A program made the translations under genes and the position numbers. Shown here piece by piece: positions 43,124 to 53,453 of a DNA stretch of 64,000 nucleotides. The first letter of the stretch is position 1. Each line of letters opens with the position of its first letter. A model generated the notes under the pieces. The model worked only from the letters and a program-made list of their open reading frames with translations, ran no database searches and was not told where the DNA came from. Location of the stretch: positions 1-64,000 of the forward strand of contig NZ_JAPESW010000018.1 of assembly GCF_028527925.1 (NCBI RefSeq), written 5' to 3'. This DNA comes from Cellulomonas fimi (lineage in GTDB: Bacteria > Actinomycetota > Actinomycetes > Actinomycetales > Cellulomonadaceae).

Positions 43124-46761
<3,638 letters not shown>

Positions 46762-46765
<4 letters not shown>

Positions 46766-47553
46766 CGTGCGGCCTCCGTCGTCGGCGTGGTCGGGGTGCC
46801 CGTCCGGTCGGGGTGGGTCACGACCATGCGGACCGGGGTCGGGTCGAAGCCGTTGCACGGGTTGTTGACCTGCGGGCAGTTCGAGACGACGACGAGGACG
46901 TCGCGCTCCGCCCGCAGCGACACCGCCAGCCCCGGTGCGGAGATGCCGTCGACGATGCCGAGCGCACCGTCCGGGTCGACCGGCACGTTCATGTACCAGT
47001 TGATGTTCGACACCAGGTCGCGCTTGCCGAGCCCGTGCCGCCCGCCCTCCGCGAGGAAGTTCTCGACGCATGCGTGCTGCGCGCGGGTGTGGTGGCCGTA
47101 GCGCAGGGTGTTCGACTCCTGCGAGCACGCGCCCCCCAGGGTGTCGTGCCGGCCGCAGGTGTCGGCGACGACCGTCATGAGCTCGCCGTGCTCGCAGTCG
47201 CGCAGCACCGATCCGGTCGTGAGGAACACCGAGTCCTGCGCCTGGATCGTGTCGGGCGCGCTGTACCGCAGCGACGTGTCGTGCGCGTCGTAGACGAGGA
47301 AGTCGACCGCCTGGTTGCCGCCGAGGTCGACGATCGTCAGCACGTCGCCGGCCGCGACCACCGCCGACCAGGGCGCGCGGGCCGGGACGACGTCGTCACG
47401 CAGCACCTCGCCGGCCGGGACGGGGTCGGCGTCGGGTGCCGGCCCGGTCGTCGGAGCAGAGGTGACGGGGGTCGCCGGGCTGGCTGCGGTCGCGGGGAAC
47501 GCGTCGGCGACCGCCGTGTCGGGCGTGCCGGTCGCGGGCGTGGTCGTGGTCAT
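46762..47553 (-). CDS. UAAP2 / carboxyguanidine deiminase subunit (DUF1989)
   Basis: 263 residues. A low-complexity Thr/Pro/Ala lead of 55 residues is followed by the DUF1989 fold: APWSAVVAAGDVLTIVDLGGNQAVDFLVYDAHD, VFLTTGSVLRDCEHGELMTVVADTCGRHDTLGGACSQESNTLRYG, and NINWYMNVPVDPDGAL. The Cys, His and Asp clusters are those of urea-amidolyase-associated protein 2. In characterised systems UAAP1 and UAAP2 form a heteromeric carboxyguanidine deiminase (CgdA/CgdB) acting after guanidine carboxylase. ATG 47553. Overlaps both neighbours by 4 bp (ATGA). Confidence 0.88.
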
Positions 47554-48422
47554 GCGATCCCCCGGGCGGTGAGGTCGGCGACGGTGTTGGTGAAGGCGCG
47601 ACGGCCCTCGGGAGTGGCGGTCCACAGCGGGTCCTCGGGCGTGGTGGCCGAGCCGTGCCAGGCGAGGACCTCGAGCGGCGACGACGTGAACTCCGGCCGC
47701 GGGTCGAGCGGGTGCGCGGTGTTGGCGACGAGCAGCAGCAGCGGCACCTCGGCGCGCAGCGTGACCGCCGCACCGGCGCCGGCCGAGCCCTCGAAGTGCG
47801 GACGGCCGTCGTCGTCGACCCGGACGCCCTGGAAGAACGACACGCTCGGCGGCAGGTCCCGACGTGTCAGCCCGTGCTTCGCGGCCGCCAGGGCGAACAG
47901 CTCACGGCCCGCGGGCGACGGGCCGTGCGCGTCGCCGTCGCCGTAGCGCTGCGCGTTGCGCGCGCGGGTCGTCGTGCCGAACAGCGCGTCCTGCCGGCCC
48001 GACGAGTCCTGCACGACCGAGGCGAGCACGCGGCCCGCGTCGGACAGCAGCAGGTGCCCCGCCGTCAGGTAGACCTGCCACTGCACCTTGACGGTGTCCG
48101 CGACGTTGAGCCGCTCCCACGGCCGGTCCAGCCGGTACGCGAGCACGTGCGCGCACGCGTCGCCGGTCAGGTCCGTGAGCCGGACGTGCGTGCCGCGCGC
48201 GACCGCGAGATGCGTGTACCCGCCGCCCGTGACGACCTCCGCGTGCACCAGGTCCGCCGGGTCGACGTCGGCCGGCGGGCTGGGCCAGGCGCTCGCGGGG
48301 AGCGTCGGCATCGCGTGGACCTGGCCGGCGGCTGCGGCCTCCTGGGCCCGGGCGTGTGCGCGGGCACCGGCGGTGGTGCCGGTCCCCGGGTCGCTCGTCG
48401 GGGGAGCGCTGGCGGTCGTCAT
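47550..48422 (-). CDS. UAAP1 / carboxyguanidine deiminase subunit (DUF1989)
   Basis: 290 residues from ATG 48422, with AGGAG eight bases upstream. Low-complexity Ala/Thr/Gly lead of about 60 residues, then GGYTHLAVARGTHVRLTDLTGDACAHVLAYRLDRPWERLNVADTVKVQWQVYLTAGHLLLSDAGRVLASVVQDSSGRQDALFG and FFQGVRVDDDGRPHFEGSAGAGAAVTLRAEVPLLLLVANTAHPLDPRP. This is the partner fold of UAAP2. First gene of the operon. A 20-bp palindrome sits 15 bp before it, between promoter and start, as expected for repression by the divergent TetR. Confidence 0.88.
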   Translation of the reverse strand: MTTASAPPTSDPGTGTTAGARAHARAQEAAAAGQVHAMPTLPASAWPSPPADVDPADLVHAEVVTGGGYTHLAVARGTHVRLTDLTGDACAHVLAYRLDRPWERLNVADTVKVQWQVYLTAGHLLLSDAGRVLASVVQDSSGRQDALFGTTTRARNAQRYGDGDAHGPSPAGRELFALAAAKHGLTRRDLPPSVSFFQGVRVDDDGRPHFEGSAGAGAAVTLRAEVPLLLLVANTAHPLDPRPEFTSSPLEVLAWHGSATTPEDPLWTATPEGRRAFTNTVADLTARGIA

Positions 48423-48437: not shown

Positions 48438-48457
48438 TTTCTGTCGTCTGACAGAAA
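48438..48457. promoter_or_regulatory. TetR-type operator of the carboxylase operon
   Basis: TTTCTGTCGTCTGACAGAAA, a perfect 8-bp-arm palindrome with 4-bp spacer. The core CTGTC-N4-GACAG recurs, with GACAGAAA on the right arm, ahead of the sodium:solute symporter at 51753-51769. It lies 15 bp before the UAAP1 start. Confidence 0.7.
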
Positions 48458-48538
48458 CAGCCTCCCGACCGCCTGTTCCCCGCCGGTCACCACCCCGTAA
48501 ACGTTGCGTTACGCCGCCCCGCCGGCCGGGCGCCCGCT

Positions 48539-48593
48539 CGATACCGACATGGGTGCCGCTCACGGCCCGCGAACGGCACCCATGTCGGTATCG
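48539..48593. repeat. Perfect 20-bp inverted repeat with 15-nt loop
   Basis: Left arm 48539-48558 begins CGATACCGACATGGG; right arm 48574-48593 is its exact reverse complement. The 55-bp element sits in the divergent spacer, between the operator and the TetR promoter. As RNA it would form a very strong hairpin in either direction. It is not a binding site of usual size. Could be a bidirectional terminator or a mobile palindromic repeat. Confidence 0.9.
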
Positions 48594-48716
48594 CCGCAGG
48601 AAGGGGCTCGCCCGGCGTCGACGCAGGCCCGGTGCCGGACATGTGCGTGGCAGTCGCCCGGGCCCGGGGGCGAGGTCTCCGGGCACCGCACGGACCGGTG
48701 GTACGTTCCCCAGGCC

Positions 48717-49592
48717 ATGGGACGCAGACCTGGACGACCACGCGCGACCGGCGACCCGCACGAGCAGCGGGACACCCGGCAGGACGTGCTCGACGCCGCC
48801 GCGGCCCTGTTCTGCACCGTCGGCTACGCCGCGACCAGCACCCGCGCGGTCGCCGACCGGGCGGGCGTCCGGCAGGCGTCGATCTACCACCACTTCGCGA
48901 GCAAGGACGCGATCCTGCTCGACCTGCTGCTCGGGTCCGTCCGCCCGTCGCTCGAGCTCGCCGACCGCCTCGCGACCACCGACGACGCCCCGGCCGCCGC
49001 CCGCCTCTGGGCCCTCGCGCACGCCGACGTGCTGCTGCTGACGACGAGCCCCGTCAACGTCGGCGCGCTGTACCTGCTGCCCGAGGTCGACGGCGAGCAG
49101 TTCGCCGAGTTCCACGCGCTCCGCGACCGCCTGCGCACCCGCTACGACGACCTCGCCGCCCAGGTGCTCGCCGCGCTCGCGGCCGCCGGGGAAGCGCCCG
49201 CCACCGACGACGTGGTCGCGGTCGAGGCCGCCGGCCCGCTCGTCCTCGGGCTCGTCGAGTCGGTCATCCTCCGGCGGCGCGCGGGCGAGCGCCTCGACGA
49301 CGACGCCGTCGCTCGGTCGGTGGCGGACGGCGTGCTCCGGCTCCTCGGCGGTGACGCCACGACCGTGGAGGCGGCACGCACCGCGTCCGCGGACCTCGCG
49401 TCGGCGGCCACGGGTGCGACCGCGCGCGCGTCGGGGGTCCGGGAGGTCACTGAGCGTGTCCCCGTCACCATGTCCGGCCGTGCGCCGCTCCCGGCGTCGG
49501 ACCGTGCGCCGCTCGCCGCACCTGGCCGTGCACCGGTCTCCGCGCCGGACGACGGTCGCGGTGCGCCGTCCGTCGACGTAGCACCCGCGTGA
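48717..49592 (+). CDS. TetR family regulator of the carboxylase operon
   Basis: 291 residues from ATG 48717. HTH: TRQDVLDAAAALFCTVGYAATSTRAVADRAGVRQASIYHHFASKDAILLDLL, a clear TetR DNA-binding domain. The ligand domain runs to about residue 205 (VGALYLLPEVDGEQFAEFHALRDRLRTRYDDLAAQVLAALAAAG). The last 80 residues are disordered with repeats of the GRAPLPASDRAPLAAPGRAP kind. Transcribed divergently from UAAP1-UAAP2-carboxylase; the perfect palindrome in front of that operon is the expected binding site. The likely inducer is guanidine, urea or a derivative (inference). Confidence 0.88.
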   Translation: MGRRPGRPRATGDPHEQRDTRQDVLDAAAALFCTVGYAATSTRAVADRAGVRQASIYHHFASKDAILLDLLLGSVRPSLELADRLATTDDAPAAARLWALAHADVLLLTTSPVNVGALYLLPEVDGEQFAEFHALRDRLRTRYDDLAAQVLAALAAAGEAPATDDVVAVEAAGPLVLGLVESVILRRRAGERLDDDAVARSVADGVLRLLGGDATTVEAARTASADLASAATGATARASGVREVTERVPVTMSGRAPLPASDRAPLAAPGRAPVSAPDDGRGAPSVDVAPA

Positions 49593-49680
49593 CCGTGCGC
49601 GTCCTCCGTCGCGAGGGGGAGGTGGTGGTCCCGCGCGCGGCCCTGGCGCGGGCACGACCACGGCCGCGAGCATCGACGTC

Positions 49681-50961
49681 ATGAGCACGCTGCCCGTTGC
49701 CGGCCCAGTCGCCGCTGCCGTGCCGGCGGCCGGCGCCGCGCTGCGCAGGTCCTTGCCGTCGATCGTCCTCGCGACGCTCGTCGGGGCGTTCCTGCTGGCG
49801 AGCCCCGCCCTCGACGGCGTCGTGTACCGCGACGGCTCCTGGGTGTCGTACGGCACGGCGCCGGGGGCGTCGTCGGGGTACGTGCTGGCCGCGCTCGTCG
49901 TCGTGGTCGTCGGCGTGCTCCTCGGGCGCGCGCACCCCGTGTGGGCGACCGTCCTCGTGCTGCTGCCCTTCCTCGGGTACGCCTGGCTCGGGTGGTGGGC
50001 CTACGGGTGGTGGCTCGCGCTGGTCGCGGTCGCGGTGCTCGCCGCGCTCGACGGCCCGGTGCGGGCGGTCGTGCCGGTGGTGGCGGCGGTCGGGGTCGCA
50101 CTGTGGTTCTGCGCGGCTCCGGTCGTCGCGAGCGTGCCTGTCGGCCTGACCGACTCCGGTTCGGGGTCCGGGTTCTCGGCGTACGTCTTCGTCGCGCACG
50201 TCGTCGCGGTGGGCGCCGCGGTGAGCCTCGCGGCGGCGGCCGGCTCGTCGTCGCGGAGCCGGGCCCGGACGCGCGCGGCGGAGTCGCAGGAGCGGCGGGC
50301 GCTCGAGGTCGAGTCCGCCGCGGCCGAGCGCGCGCGGCTCGCGCGCGACCTGCACGACGTCGTCGCGCACCACGTGTCGCTCGTCGTCGTGCGCGCCGAG
50401 AGCGCGCCGTTCCAGTACCCCGACCTCGACGACGACGCGCGCGAGGTGCTCGCGGCGGTCGCGTCGGACGGGCGCCAGGCGCTCGGCGAGCTGCGGCAGG
50501 TCCTCACGGTGCTGCGGCGGTCCGAGGCGACGGAGGGTGCGGAGCGGGCGCCGCAGCCCGGTGCGCAGGACGTCGACGTGCTCGTCGCCGCCGCCCGGGA
50601 CGCCGGGCAGGAGGTCCGGGTGTCGGGCGCCTGGCGCGACATCGACGAGCCGACCGGCTACGTCCTCTACCGCGTGGTCCAGGAGTGCCTGACGAACGCG
50701 CGACGGCACGCCTTCGGGGAGCCCGTCGACGTCGAGCTCCGCAGCGACGCCCGTGGCGTCGGCCTGGTCGTCCGCAACGCGTCCCCCCAGCCGGACCGAC
50801 CGGTCGTGCCCGGGCGCGGGCTCGTCGGGATGCGGGAGCGCGTCGAGGCGCTCGGCGGTCTGCTCGACGTGCGCACGGCGGGCGGGCAGTTCGTCGTCGA
50901 GGCGCTGCTGCCCGACGGGCCTCCCGGCACGCCCGAGGCCGGCGCGGGGGCACGCGCATGA
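49681..50961 (+). CDS. Sensor histidine kinase, NarL/DesK-type (HisKA_3)
   Basis: 426 residues. Four to six TM helices without a recognisable extracellular domain (AALVVVVVGVLLGRAHPVWATVLVLLPFLGYAWLGWWAYGWW), then the HisKA_3 motif ERARLARDLHDVVAHHVSLVVVRAES with the phospho-His at about residue 225, and HATPase_c with TGYVLYRVVQECLTNARRHA (N box) and GRGLVGMRERVEALGG (G box). All catalytic motifs are intact. A degenerate paralogue lies at 41616. The stop overlaps the response regulator start by 4 bp, so they form a two-component pair. Confidence 0.95.
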   Translation: MSTLPVAGPVAAAVPAAGAALRRSLPSIVLATLVGAFLLASPALDGVVYRDGSWVSYGTAPGASSGYVLAALVVVVVGVLLGRAHPVWATVLVLLPFLGYAWLGWWAYGWWLALVAVAVLAALDGPVRAVVPVVAAVGVALWFCAAPVVASVPVGLTDSGSGSGFSAYVFVAHVVAVGAAVSLAAAAGSSSRSRARTRAAESQERRALEVESAAAERARLARDLHDVVAHHVSLVVVRAESAPFQYPDLDDDAREVLAAVASDGRQALGELRQVLTVLRRSEATEGAERAPQPGAQDVDVLVAAARDAGQEVRVSGAWRDIDEPTGYVLYRVVQECLTNARRHAFGEPVDVELRSDARGVGLVVRNASPQPDRPVVPGRGLVGMRERVEALGGLLDVRTAGGQFVVEALLPDGPPGTPEAGAGARA

Positions 50962-51599
50962 CGCGCGTCGTCGTCGCGGACGACCAGCCGGTCGTCCTGC
51001 AGGGGTTCGCGGCGATCCTCGGCTCGGCGCCGGACCTGGAGGTCGTCGGCACGGCCGCCGACGGGCGTGCGCTGGTCGAGCTCGTCGCGCGCACCGAGCC
51101 CGACGTCGCCGTCGTCGACGTGCGGATGCCCGTGCTCGACGGGATCGCCGCGACGCAGCAGGTCGTCGCGCGGCACCCGTCGACGCGCGTCCTGGTCCTC
51201 ACGACGTTCGACCTCGACGAGTACGTGCTGGACGCGCTGCGCGCCGGTGCCAGCGGGTTCCTCCTCAAGGACGTCACCGCGGAGCGGCTGGTCGAGGCGG
51301 TCCGCCTCGTCGCCGAGGGTTCGATGCTGCTCGGCCCGAACGTGACGCGGCGGCTCGTCGAGGACTTCTCGCGACGCGTCCGCCGGCCGTCGCCGGAGTT
51401 CGACGCACTGACCCCGCGCGAGCGTGAGGTGGCGCTCGCGGCGGCGCGCGGGCTGTCGAACGGCGAGATCGCGGCCGAGCTCTACATCGGCGAGTCGACG
51501 GTCAAGACCCACCTGTCGGAGGTGCTGCGCAAGCTGCGGTGCCGGGACCGGGTGCAGCTCGTCGTGCGCGTGCACGAGGCGGGCCTCGTCGAGGGCTGA
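50958..51599 (+). CDS. NarL/LuxR-type response regulator
   Basis: 213 residues from ATG 50958. Receiver domain with VVVADDQPVVLQGF, phospho-Asp 54 in VVDVRMPVLDG, the Thr and Lys of TTFDLDEY and FLLKD; then the LuxR-type HTH ALTPREREVALAAARGLSNGEIAAELYIGESTVKTHLSEVLRKL. Intact. Partner of the upstream kinase. Target unknown; regulators of this subclass bind GGGAC-type or similar dyads, so the palindromes at 10.7-10.9 kb are one possible target, which is speculation. Confidence 0.95.
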   Translation: MTRVVVADDQPVVLQGFAAILGSAPDLEVVGTAADGRALVELVARTEPDVAVVDVRMPVLDGIAATQQVVARHPSTRVLVLTTFDLDEYVLDALRAGASGFLLKDVTAERLVEAVRLVAEGSMLLGPNVTRRLVEDFSRRVRRPSPEFDALTPREREVALAAARGLSNGEIAAELYIGESTVKTHLSEVLRKLRCRDRVQLVVRVHEAGLVEG

Positions 51600-51752
51600 C
51601 ACCCGCCGCGCGCACCCCGGAGCCGGACGGCCGACGCGGCGCCTCGCGCGCGTGCGCGTGTGCCCGCGTCCGCGCGGTCGCTGCGGAGCGGGATTTAACA
51701 CAGCCGTTTCGTGCGTGCAGCGACGGCGACACAGCCCGGGTGGTCAATGAAC

Positions 51753-51769
51753 CTGTCGAGCGACAGAAA
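51753..51769. promoter_or_regulatory. Second CTGTC-N4-GACAG box, upstream of symporter
   Basis: CTGTCGAGCGACAGAAA: same CTGTC-N4-GACAG core and the same AAA on the right as the operator before UAAP1. It sits 83 bp before the symporter start in a 252-bp gap. Confidence 0.6.
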
Positions 51770-51851: not shown

Positions 51852-53453
51852 ATGATCATCGCCGGAGTCGGGCTCTCCGTCCTCGCCGTCGTCCTCGTCG
51901 GCATCCTCGTCGCCCGCAAGGTCGACGGGGACAGCGCCAACTACCTCGTCGCCGGGCGTCGCCTCGGCGTCCCGCTCGTCGCCGCCTCCCTCATGGCGGC
52001 CGCGGTCGACTCGAACGCGACCGTCGGCAACACCGACCTCACCTCGTCGTTCGGCTTCTGGGCGGGCACGTCGCTCGCGCTCGGCCTCGCGATCTGCCTC
52101 ACGCTGACCGGCCTCTTCCTCGCCAAGCCCATGCACCGCCTGAAGCTCTTCACGCTCGGCGACTTCTACCGGATCCGGTACGGGCGTGGCGTCGAGGTCT
52201 CGGCGTCCGTCCTCATGATCTTCGCGTTCGCGATCCTCATGGCGGGCAACCTGGTCGCGTGCGGGTTCCTGCTCGAGCGGTTCCTCGGGCTCGACTACAC
52301 GGTCGGCGTCGTCATCGCCGTCGTCCTCGTGCTCGTCTACACGATCGGCGGCGGCATGTTCTCCGACGCCTACACCGCGGCGATCCAGATCACCATCACC
52401 GCCGCCGCGACCGTCGCGATGCTGTGGTGGGTCGGCTCGACGATCGGCTTCCAGATCGACCCCGGCATGGGCCCGTTCGACCTCGAGCAGCTCACGTCCA
52501 CCGACGCGGGCGCCCCCATCAACTGGGCGACGCTCATCTCGCTCGGCATCGGCGACATCGTCGCGATCGACTTCATGCAGCGCGTGTTCTCCGCGAAGTC
52601 GCCCGAGATCGCCCGCCGCTCGTGCTTCACCGCCGCCGCGGGCACCGCGCTCGTCGGCGTCGCCTACGGCCTCGTCGCGCTCACCGCGGTCTCCGTGCTC
52701 GGCATCACGACCGCCGACGGACCGGTCCTGTTCACGCTGCTCGACGACTACGCGCCGCCCGGGCTCGCGATCCTCGTCCTCTCGGGCATCGTCGCCGCGT
52801 CGTTCTCGACCGCGTCGGGGGCCATCCTCGCGACGTCCGCCGTCGCGGTGCGCAACATCTTCGGCGTCCGCCGCGTCGTCGACACCCCCGGTGTCAAGGA
52901 CCCGCTGCTGCGCTGGACCCGCCTCGCGATGGTGCCGATCGTCGTCCTGGGCGTGACCGTCGCGCTCGAGGTCGCCCAGACGGGGATCCTGCTGACCCTC
53001 GCGTTCGACCTCATGCTCGCCGCACTCGTCGTGCCATTCCTGCTCGGCCTGTTCTGGAAGCGCGGCGGTCGCGACGCCGCGGTCGCCGCGATGGCGGTCG
53101 GCCTCACCGTGCGGCTCGGGCTCTTCGTCCTCACGCCCACGATCTACGGCGTCCCGAACGACGTCCTCTACGTCCCGAACGACCTCGTGCCCGCGACCTT
53201 CGACGGCTGGCCGACGTTCTACGGCGCGATCACGTCGCTGCTCGCCTACCTCGTCGTCGCGTTCCTCCGCCCGCGCTCCGTCGCCGAGGAGGCCTGGGCC
53301 CTCACCGACACCGCCCCGGCCGCGACCGAGGCAGCGCCCGCGGCGGTCCCGGAGGCCGCGCTCGCGGAGCCGCACGACGGGGCCGCGGGCGTGGGGTCCG
53401 GCATCCCGACCGAGCCCGGTCCTCGCAACGACGGGCTCCCGGCACCGGCCTGA
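51852..53453 (+). CDS. Sodium:solute symporter (SSS family)
   Basis: 533 residues with about 13 TM helices. Begins MIIAGVGLSVLAVVLVGILVARKVDGDSANYLVAGRRLG, the typical SSS N-terminus. Na+-site features: SLMAAAVDSNATVGNT, IGGGMFSDAYTAAIQ, and SGIVAASFSTASGAILATSAV in TM8, with Ser/Thr residues that bind Na+. The C-terminal 60 residues are disordered. SSS proteins carry urea, proline, sugars or vitamins. The shared operator with the UAAP/carboxylase operon makes guanidine or urea a plausible cargo (inference). ATG 51852 follows GGAGCC. Confidence 0.93.
   Translation: MIIAGVGLSVLAVVLVGILVARKVDGDSANYLVAGRRLGVPLVAASLMAAAVDSNATVGNTDLTSSFGFWAGTSLALGLAICLTLTGLFLAKPMHRLKLFTLGDFYRIRYGRGVEVSASVLMIFAFAILMAGNLVACGFLLERFLGLDYTVGVVIAVVLVLVYTIGGGMFSDAYTAAIQITITAAATVAMLWWVGSTIGFQIDPGMGPFDLEQLTSTDAGAPINWATLISLGIGDIVAIDFMQRVFSAKSPEIARRSCFTAAAGTALVGVAYGLVALTAVSVLGITTADGPVLFTLLDDYAPPGLAILVLSGIVAASFSTASGAILATSAVAVRNIFGVRRVVDTPGVKDPLLRWTRLAMVPIVVLGVTVALEVAQTGILLTLAFDLMLAALVVPFLLGLFWKRGGRDAAVAAMAVGLTVRLGLFVLTPTIYGVPNDVLYVPNDLVPATFDGWPTFYGAITSLLAYLVVAFLRPRSVAEEAWALTDTAPAATEAAPAAVPEAALAEPHDGAAGVGSGIPTEPGPRNDGLPAPA

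Follow-up and report, generated by a model that had tools for sequence, protein, structure and literature searches.

Predicted AmtR-type operators link a putative guanidine carboxylase operon to a sodium symporter gene in Cellulomonas fimi

Introduction

The repressor AmtR of Mycobacterium smegmatis (MSMEG_4300) binds upstream of msmeg_2184 and controls the genes msmeg_2184-2189 (PMC4222082). The transcripts of msmeg_2184, msmeg_2187, which encodes a carboxylase, and msmeg_2189 rise in an amtR mutant, and the reported tests of urea and amino acids at 0.5-5 mM failed to release the repressor from DNA (PMC4222082). The same promoter region is bound by GlnR, on which expression of msmeg_2184 depends (PMC3662644; PMC4222082). 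Here, a related locus is described from a 64-kb stretch of the genome of the high-GC soil actinobacterium Cellulomonas fimi (contig NZ_JAPESW010000018.1, positions 1 to 64,000; hereafter the window). It contains a TetR-type repressor gene, a divergent operon of the genes UAAP1, UAAP2 and a carboxylase, and a gene for a sodium:solute symporter (SSS). Both the operon and the symporter gene are preceded by copies of one putative operator.

The AmtR box has the consensus tttCTATN6AtAGat/aA, which corresponds to a CTAT-N6-ATAG frame (PMC2723105), and GlnR sites follow the rule AC-n9-AC (PMC3662644). Carboxylases of the type encoded in the window are divided by two residues: Asp at positions equivalent to 1330 and 1584 of the Kluyveromyces lactis enzyme indicates guanidine as the substrate, and Asn at position 1330 indicates urea (PMC11410670; PMC12186494). 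The guanidine importers named in a review belong to the ABC and APC types (PMC12186494). A 2025 review counts guanidine-binding transcription factors among the things still to be found.

Results

Two rare sites precede the operon and the symporter gene

It is highly probable, from the sequence comparisons given below, that an AmtR-type repressor, probably released by guanidine, governs both guanidine uptake and guanidine catabolism from this locus, with a GlnR-like box at UAAP1. Operator 1 (TTTCTGTCGTCTGACAGAAA, 48438-48457) is located 15 bp ahead of the start codon of UAAP1 (48422, minus strand), divergent from the TetR gene, at the coordinates that the initial annotation of the window had given for it. 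The site had been called a perfect palindrome; this holds for its 8-nt arms, which repeat each other exactly in inverted orientation, but the 4-nt centre (GTCT) breaks the symmetry. A second copy of the core had been noticed 83 bp before the symporter gene. This site is real, and in full (AACCTGTCGAGCGACAGAAA) it extends over 51750-51769, 82 bp ahead of the symporter start at 51852. The symporter had been described as distant, which was an overstatement, as the two operators are separated by just 3.3 kb.

The core CTGTC-N4-GACAG is present twice in the window, compared to 0.09 copies expected, and none of 100 shuffles reached two. A genome-wide count, which the initial annotation had proposed as a check, places the core at four positions in 4,396,627 bases. 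Two of them are the operators, and the other two are inside open reading frames that resemble, by eye, an alpha/beta hydrolase (C121) and a phosphate acetyltransferase (C156). The extended 20-mer, with up to three mismatches allowed, matches only the two operators in the whole genome, and a reversed control pattern of the 20-mer gave zero genome matches.

The conservation of the sites was evaluated in a sample of 200 genomes of the family. UAAP1 matches were found in 42 genomes and exceeded the cut-off in 37, the window included. Forty regions were fetched, comprising all of the 37 except that of the C. fimi genome, the locus of which is the window itself, and a few others; the weak UAAP1 matches in G005, G047 and G166 were left out, and genes were mapped by tblastn. 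TetR, symporter and carboxylase genes are all present in 22 of the 37 genomes. Within 250 nt upstream of UAAP1, the motif is exact in 19 of these 22 loci, and the other three score nine of the ten fixed bases. Within 250 nt upstream of the symporter, it is also exact in 19 loci, and the others retain nine, eight and eight bases. Of 39 exact motifs in 428 kb, 38 are in the upstream regions of UAAP1 or of the symporter. The operator arms are constant across loci and the four central bases vary, as expected of a repressor site.

A chance pair of palindromes could be invoked, because a 10-base core is expected a few times in 4.4 Mb and was found in four places. The probability of this explanation is negligible, since each position is conserved in 19 of 22 loci and just 0.5% of random 250-nt windows lacking an exact site reach nine of ten bases; together with the 20-mer search, the conservation across family loci rules it out. 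Both sites are thus conserved in relatives, which favours the single regulon of uptake and breakdown put forward in the initial annotation.

The UAAP1 and UAAP2 genes of seven other family loci (L049, L056, L057, L060, L061, L062 and L068) adjoin an allophanate hydrolase gene, with no carboxylase match and no exact motif. It is possible that these loci serve a different substrate or contain a diverged carboxylase.

The repressor belongs to the AmtR family

By sequence, the TetR protein of the window is a member of the AmtR family. Its best relatives of known structure are AmtR of M. smegmatis (5e57, E=5.5e-36) and AmtR of Corynebacterium glutamicum (5dy1, 5dy0 and 5dxz, about 1e-33), whereas the first non-AmtR TetR chain follows at 1.4e-11. 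When its genome was searched with an AmtR alignment, no other protein matched at E<=1e-25 (9 of 102 candidates were scored). The core CTGTC-N4-GACAG fits CTRT-N6-AYAG and thus the frame of the AmtR box, which identifies the window motif, at the level of sequence, as an AmtR box. The initial annotation had missed both the identity of the repressor and the known box. Given the M. smegmatis precedent, such operons were already known to be controlled through an operator.

Named AmtR loci provide a second view of the association. Among the best 80 of those listed, from Mycobacteriaceae and Nocardiaceae, 59 have UAAP2 near AmtR, and in the remaining 21 no UAAP2 accompanies AmtR within the retrieved sequence. 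A CTRTC-N4-GAYAG box is located between the genes in all 59, in 53 exactly (three of these boxes sit just beyond a 460-nt frame) and in six with one mismatch. Mycolicibacterium wolinskyi, one of the 21, stood in for M. smegmatis; its AmtR is 86% identical over the query. It has a permease-UAAP1-UAAP2-carboxylase-AtzF operon away from AmtR, and this operon carries the 14-mer of operator 1 unchanged. In a phylum-wide sample of 296 genomes, AmtR was found in 12 and UAAP in 10; both occur in nine, always at most 2.7 kb apart, AmtR occurs without UAAP in three, and UAAP without AmtR in one.

An alternative is that AmtR governs both units but senses nitrogen through the PII protein GlnK, as in C. 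glutamicum, so that guanidine is no inducer. The two repressors belong to one protein family, and PII releases AmtR in C. glutamicum (PMC4617892). In M. smegmatis, however, nitrogen control is retained in the absence of AmtR and requires GlnR (PMC4222082), and PII plays no part in the transcriptional nitrogen response. The GlnR-like box would already give UAAP1 a nitrogen input. Furthermore, all 82 guanidine-linked AmtRs examined have D104 and E181, whereas relatives of C. glutamicum AmtR mostly have E (91%) and L (60%) at these positions (120 best-listed of 404, the named members being from Corynebacterium); the contrast is correlative, as relatedness alone could cause it. Sensing through GlnK is therefore considered unlikely.

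The carboxylase carries the guanidine signature

UAAP1, UAAP2 and the carboxylase each exceed their own NCBIfam cut-offs. We take UAAP1 and UAAP2 to be the subunits of a carboxyguanidine deiminase pair. The carboxylase has Asp at residue 699, which corresponds to K. lactis 1330, and the Asp of the sequence GLGDV corresponds to K. lactis 1584. Because of this signature, the candidate role of the protein as a urea enzyme was rejected; the signature agrees with the earlier proposal of guanidine rather than urea as the predicted substrate. Asp is also found in all 57 readable carboxylases of the best 80 named AmtR loci, in those of all six mycobacterial genomes searched through their loci, M. wolinskyi included, and, besides the window, in each of the 25 family loci retrieved that contain a carboxylase gene (the paralog described below apart), 22 of which have a TetR match. 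As Asp is present in every readable AmtR-linked carboxylase, the AmtR regulons are, on this signature, guanidine regulons wherever the residue is readable.

On contig C33 (5419-11235), the C. fimi genome encodes a paralog of the carboxylase next to the allophanate hydrolase gene atzF; this paralog is 62% identical, is of the Asn type, and lacks the motif. It is probably a true urea carboxylase, and the adjoining allophanate hydrolase may serve both pathways.

The existence of the paralog also bears on the explanation that the operon of the window degrades urea and its symporter carries urea, in a bacterial DUR3-like role. The carboxylase is annotated as urea carboxylase, and the title of a 2016 paper (Petridis) describes the M. 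smegmatis AmtR regulon as one of urea metabolism. Against this stand the Asp at K. lactis 1330, the separate Asn-type carboxylase with AtzF in the same genome, the binding of M. smegmatis AmtR, which was unaffected by urea (PMC4222082), and the linkage of symporter relatives to guanidine-I riboswitches. A urea system is thus very improbable.

For most of the AmtR-linked carboxylases of Mycobacteriaceae and Nocardiaceae (L098-L167), the alignment with the window enzyme is limited to about residues 449 to 1115 of the latter. These genes seem to lack the portions for biotin carboxylase and biotin carrier, which may come from elsewhere.

The symporter family occurs with AmtR boxes and with guanidine-I riboswitches

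The window symporter scores 94.1 bits for PF00474, compared to a gathering score of 22.8, and 105.7 bits for TIGR00813, which is below the cut-off of 184. Its closest named relatives come from Cellulomonas, and family members carry general names, one of them "choline transporter". Outside the family of the window, symporters matching at E<=1e-140 were found in six of 296 class genomes and nine of 297 order genomes, 15 in total; the other matches in these samples belong to the window's own family. Seven of the 15 are located in UAAP clusters with an AmtR box. An AmtR gene was seen in six of the seven; none was seen within 20 kb of sequence from G931, and the contig of G894 ends before the expected position of the carboxylase gene. 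The AmtR box immediately precedes the symporter gene in five of the seven clusters, and G675 has such boxes ahead of each of UAAP1, the symporter and AtzF.

Five others of the 15 adjoin an arginase-family gene with a guanidine-I riboswitch. In four, the arginase-family gene is divergent, with the guanidine-I riboswitch directly before the symporter and a guanidine-III riboswitch before the arginase-family gene; in the fifth (G780), the guanidine-I riboswitch is followed by the arginase-family gene and then by the symporter. The arginase-family enzyme of L254 matches solved guanidinases (9FEK at 6e-152, 7ESR and 7OI1 at 3e-147) ahead of the next family at 4e-46, and the guanidinase signature of T, H and W is retained in all five linked enzymes. 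Riboswitch and AmtR control thus appear to alternate on one transporter family. Because the symporter occurs under AmtR boxes with one guanidine pathway and under guanidine riboswitches with an unrelated one, guanidinium is the simplest cargo and a very probable one. The links of the relatives to guanidine-I riboswitches and guanidinases support the initial annotation, which had suggested this cargo.

The symporter might instead share the operator while importing another organic cation, for example choline or methylguanidine, that feeds the pathway indirectly. Among proteins of solved structure, choline transporters are nearest to it in sequence (9rws, 6e-17), and one genus has the symporter gene away from guanidine genes. 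This explanation is improbable given that the symporter adjoins a guanidinase gene and a guanidine-I riboswitch in five genomes, and that in Nocardia fusca (L166) it fills the slot held by an APC permease in 12 other loci.

In the loci L252-L255, the guanidine-I and guanidine-III riboswitches stand back to back in one intergenic region between symporter and guanidinase, two classes with one ligand. A CN-hydrolase gene comes next in L254 and L252.

Riboswitches in the window and the family

The window contains no Rfam match at gathering score (cmscan). The guanidine-I riboswitch (RF00442) was found in none of the 200 family genomes, and the guanidine-III riboswitch (RF01763) was not found in the C. 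fimi genome. Riboswitch control of the window operon was rejected, based on the absence of Rfam matches in the window and of guanidine-I in the 200 genomes. Guanidine-III riboswitches exceed the cut-off in 102 of the 200 genomes; where a genome also has a UAAP locus, the two are on different contigs or separated by 20 kb or more (coordinates compared by eye). Twelve guanidine-III regions were fetched (L200-L211). Nine of ten next genes tested by Pfam encode small multidrug resistance proteins (PF00893), the tenth (L208) matches no Pfam family, and L210 and L211 were judged by eye. The position of guanidine-III riboswitches before exporters of this type in UAAP genomes suggests that efflux would be controlled by RNA and catabolism by protein in one cell.

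Features of the locus

The AmtR and symporter genes are separated by 2262 bp in the window, compared to 35-639 bp in 21 other two-gene loci (Table 1). The pair of genes for a sensor histidine kinase and a response regulator occupies this interval, and no such match is present there in the 21 other loci. The two-component system (49681-51596) is probably outside the AmtR regulon, and automatic annotation may read it as part of the locus. An inverted repeat with 27-nt arms (48539-48593) is located between operator 1 and the TetR gene and is a member of a dispersed family. Its 19-nt arm, with up to three mismatches, occurs at 16 places in the genome, 14 of which form seven pairs 34 bp apart. The repeat looks like a REP-type element.

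Table 1. Features of the predicted AmtR locus in the C. fimi window
Feature	Position	Strand	Remarks
Predicted guanidine carboxylase (annotated "urea carboxylase")	43127..46765	-	1213 residues; TIGR02712 1740 bits, over cut-off; aligned to 5i8i/3va7
UAAP2	46765..47553	-	TIGR03424 over cut-off
UAAP1, first gene of operon	47556..48422	-	start codon 48422; TIGR03425 over cut-off
AmtR-type operator 1 (predicted from sequence), TTTCTGTC-N4-GACAGAAA	48438..48457	-	15 bp before UAAP1
GlnR-like box (putative binding site), GTAAC-N6-TTTAC-N6-GTGAC-N6-GGAAC	48475..48512	-	upstream of operator 1
AmtR-type TetR repressor gene	48717..49589	+	divergent from UAAP1
Sensor histidine kinase	49681..50958	+	between AmtR and symporter; probably outside regulon
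NarL-type response regulator	50958..51596	+	partner of the kinase; probably outside regulon
Conserved block TTAAC-N6-GTTTC-N6-GCAGC-N6-GACAC	51695..51732	+	upstream of operator 2; degenerate GlnR-like, weak (no fit to AC-n9-AC)
AmtR-type operator 2 (predicted from sequence), AACCTGTC-N4-GACAGAAA	51750..51769	+	82 bp before symporter
Sodium:solute symporter (SSS), predicted guanidinium importer	51852..53450	+	PF00474

Discussion

In the proposed mechanism, AmtR would bind operators 1 and 2 and hold off two units: the UAAP1-UAAP2-carboxylase operon and the gene of the sodium symporter, which would import guanidinium. Binding to both operators is predicted from the sites and the family of the repressor. 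Upon entry of guanidine or its immediate product, AmtR would let go and both units would be transcribed. UAAP1 and UAAP2 would deiminate carboxyguanidine to allophanate, which would be processed by the allophanate hydrolase encoded elsewhere in the genome (C33). As operator 1 has the GlnR-like box on one side and the start codon of UAAP1 on the other, AmtR bound to it would block initiation or early elongation. Guanidine as the effector is suggested by the logic of the pathway, the failure of urea in M. smegmatis and the pattern of D104 and E181, and release by guanidine is on balance likely.

The GlnR-like box upstream of operator 1 would add nitrogen limitation as a second condition. It has four half-sites at 11-bp steps, and A[CT]-N9-AC is present at offset 55 or 56 before operator 1 in 21 of 22 loci, but not in L053. 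Input from GlnR at UAAP1 is probable. Upstream of the symporter, the conserved block is without the canonical AC-n9-AC form, and GlnR input at this gene is possible but rather doubtful.

Several observations weigh against a guanidine-responsive regulon of both units. In 15 of the 37 UAAP1 genomes of the family, at least one of TetR, symporter and carboxylase is missing from the fetched piece, in some cases at a contig end. Among these 15, the exact motif before UAAP1 is present only in L051, and the rest score 6 to 8; in L065, an exact motif is found near an APC gene instead. Common ancestry of the loci means that the counts are not independent. The TetR start is 259 bp away from operator 1, which makes autoregulation uncertain. 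The family loci L043, L051 and L070 have Asp in the carboxylase and no TetR match, so this signature also occurs outside AmtR loci. Near three of the 15 outside relatives of the symporter (L271, L276 and L277, all from a single genus), there are no guanidine genes, no AmtR box and no riboswitch, and these three symporters nest among guanidine-linked ones in a midpoint-rooted tree, in which branch support was not considered. The notion of the symporter as exclusively a guanidine gene was not upheld because of these three loci. Finally, an effector other than guanidine is possible, since AmtR of C. glutamicum answers to the PII protein and not to a small molecule.

A literature search, with most subscription journals outside its scope, found AmtR and guanidine together only in insect work, judging by title. 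Within the same scope, there were no papers on guanidine-sensing transcription factors, the sole match concerning phosphate promoters by its title; the literature on AmtR and allophanate shared nothing with that on AmtR and guanidine; and guanidinase and symporter co-occurred only where the symporter is a urea one.

A wider evolutionary reading has about even chances of being correct. AmtR would originally have been guanidine-responsive, which would make it the first protein known to sense guanidine, and would hold the place of guanidine riboswitches across Actinomycetota. The master nitrogen regulator of Corynebacterium would descend from it through loss of the guanidinium site and acquisition of control by GlnK, and the SSS subfamily would constitute a third class of guanidine importers, swapping AmtR and riboswitch control. 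If the locus works as proposed, the inability of urea and amino acids to release M. smegmatis AmtR in 2013 would be accounted for, the mycobacterial "urea" operon would belong to guanidine instead, and the symporter family, whose members bear only general names, would gain a cargo. The locus points to a protein family with solved structures and supplies operators, which makes the question of a guanidine sensor directly testable by gel shift.

The locus resembles the AmtR regulon of M. smegmatis in having an AmtR-family repressor, the same operon type (permease, two "urf" genes, carboxylase and amidase) and GlnR as a second regulator. In M. smegmatis, the permease is annotated as an amino acid permease (of APC type in the relatives seen), AmtR is encoded elsewhere, and the pathway has been read as urea metabolism; in the window, an SSS symporter with its own operator replaces the permease, AmtR is adjacent, and the carboxylase has the guanidine signature. 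AmtR of C. glutamicum is a homologous repressor with the same CTAT-N6-ATAG box frame (PMC2723105). It differs in its regulon of at least 35 genes and its release by PII/GlnK, and D104 and E181 are mostly changed in its close relatives. The carboxylase operons of Raoultella and Klebsiella with guanidine-I or guanidine-II riboswitches contain the same degradation enzymes and a linked importer, but combine RNA control with an ABC importer, whereas protein control and an SSS symporter are predicted for the window (PMC12186494). The guanidinase loci of Nitrospira inopinata and Synechocystis, which have a guanidine-I riboswitch, likewise pair a linked importer with a guanidine-specific enzyme. Their importer is of the APC or ABC type, whereas that of the five actinobacterial genomes in this survey belongs to the SSS family.

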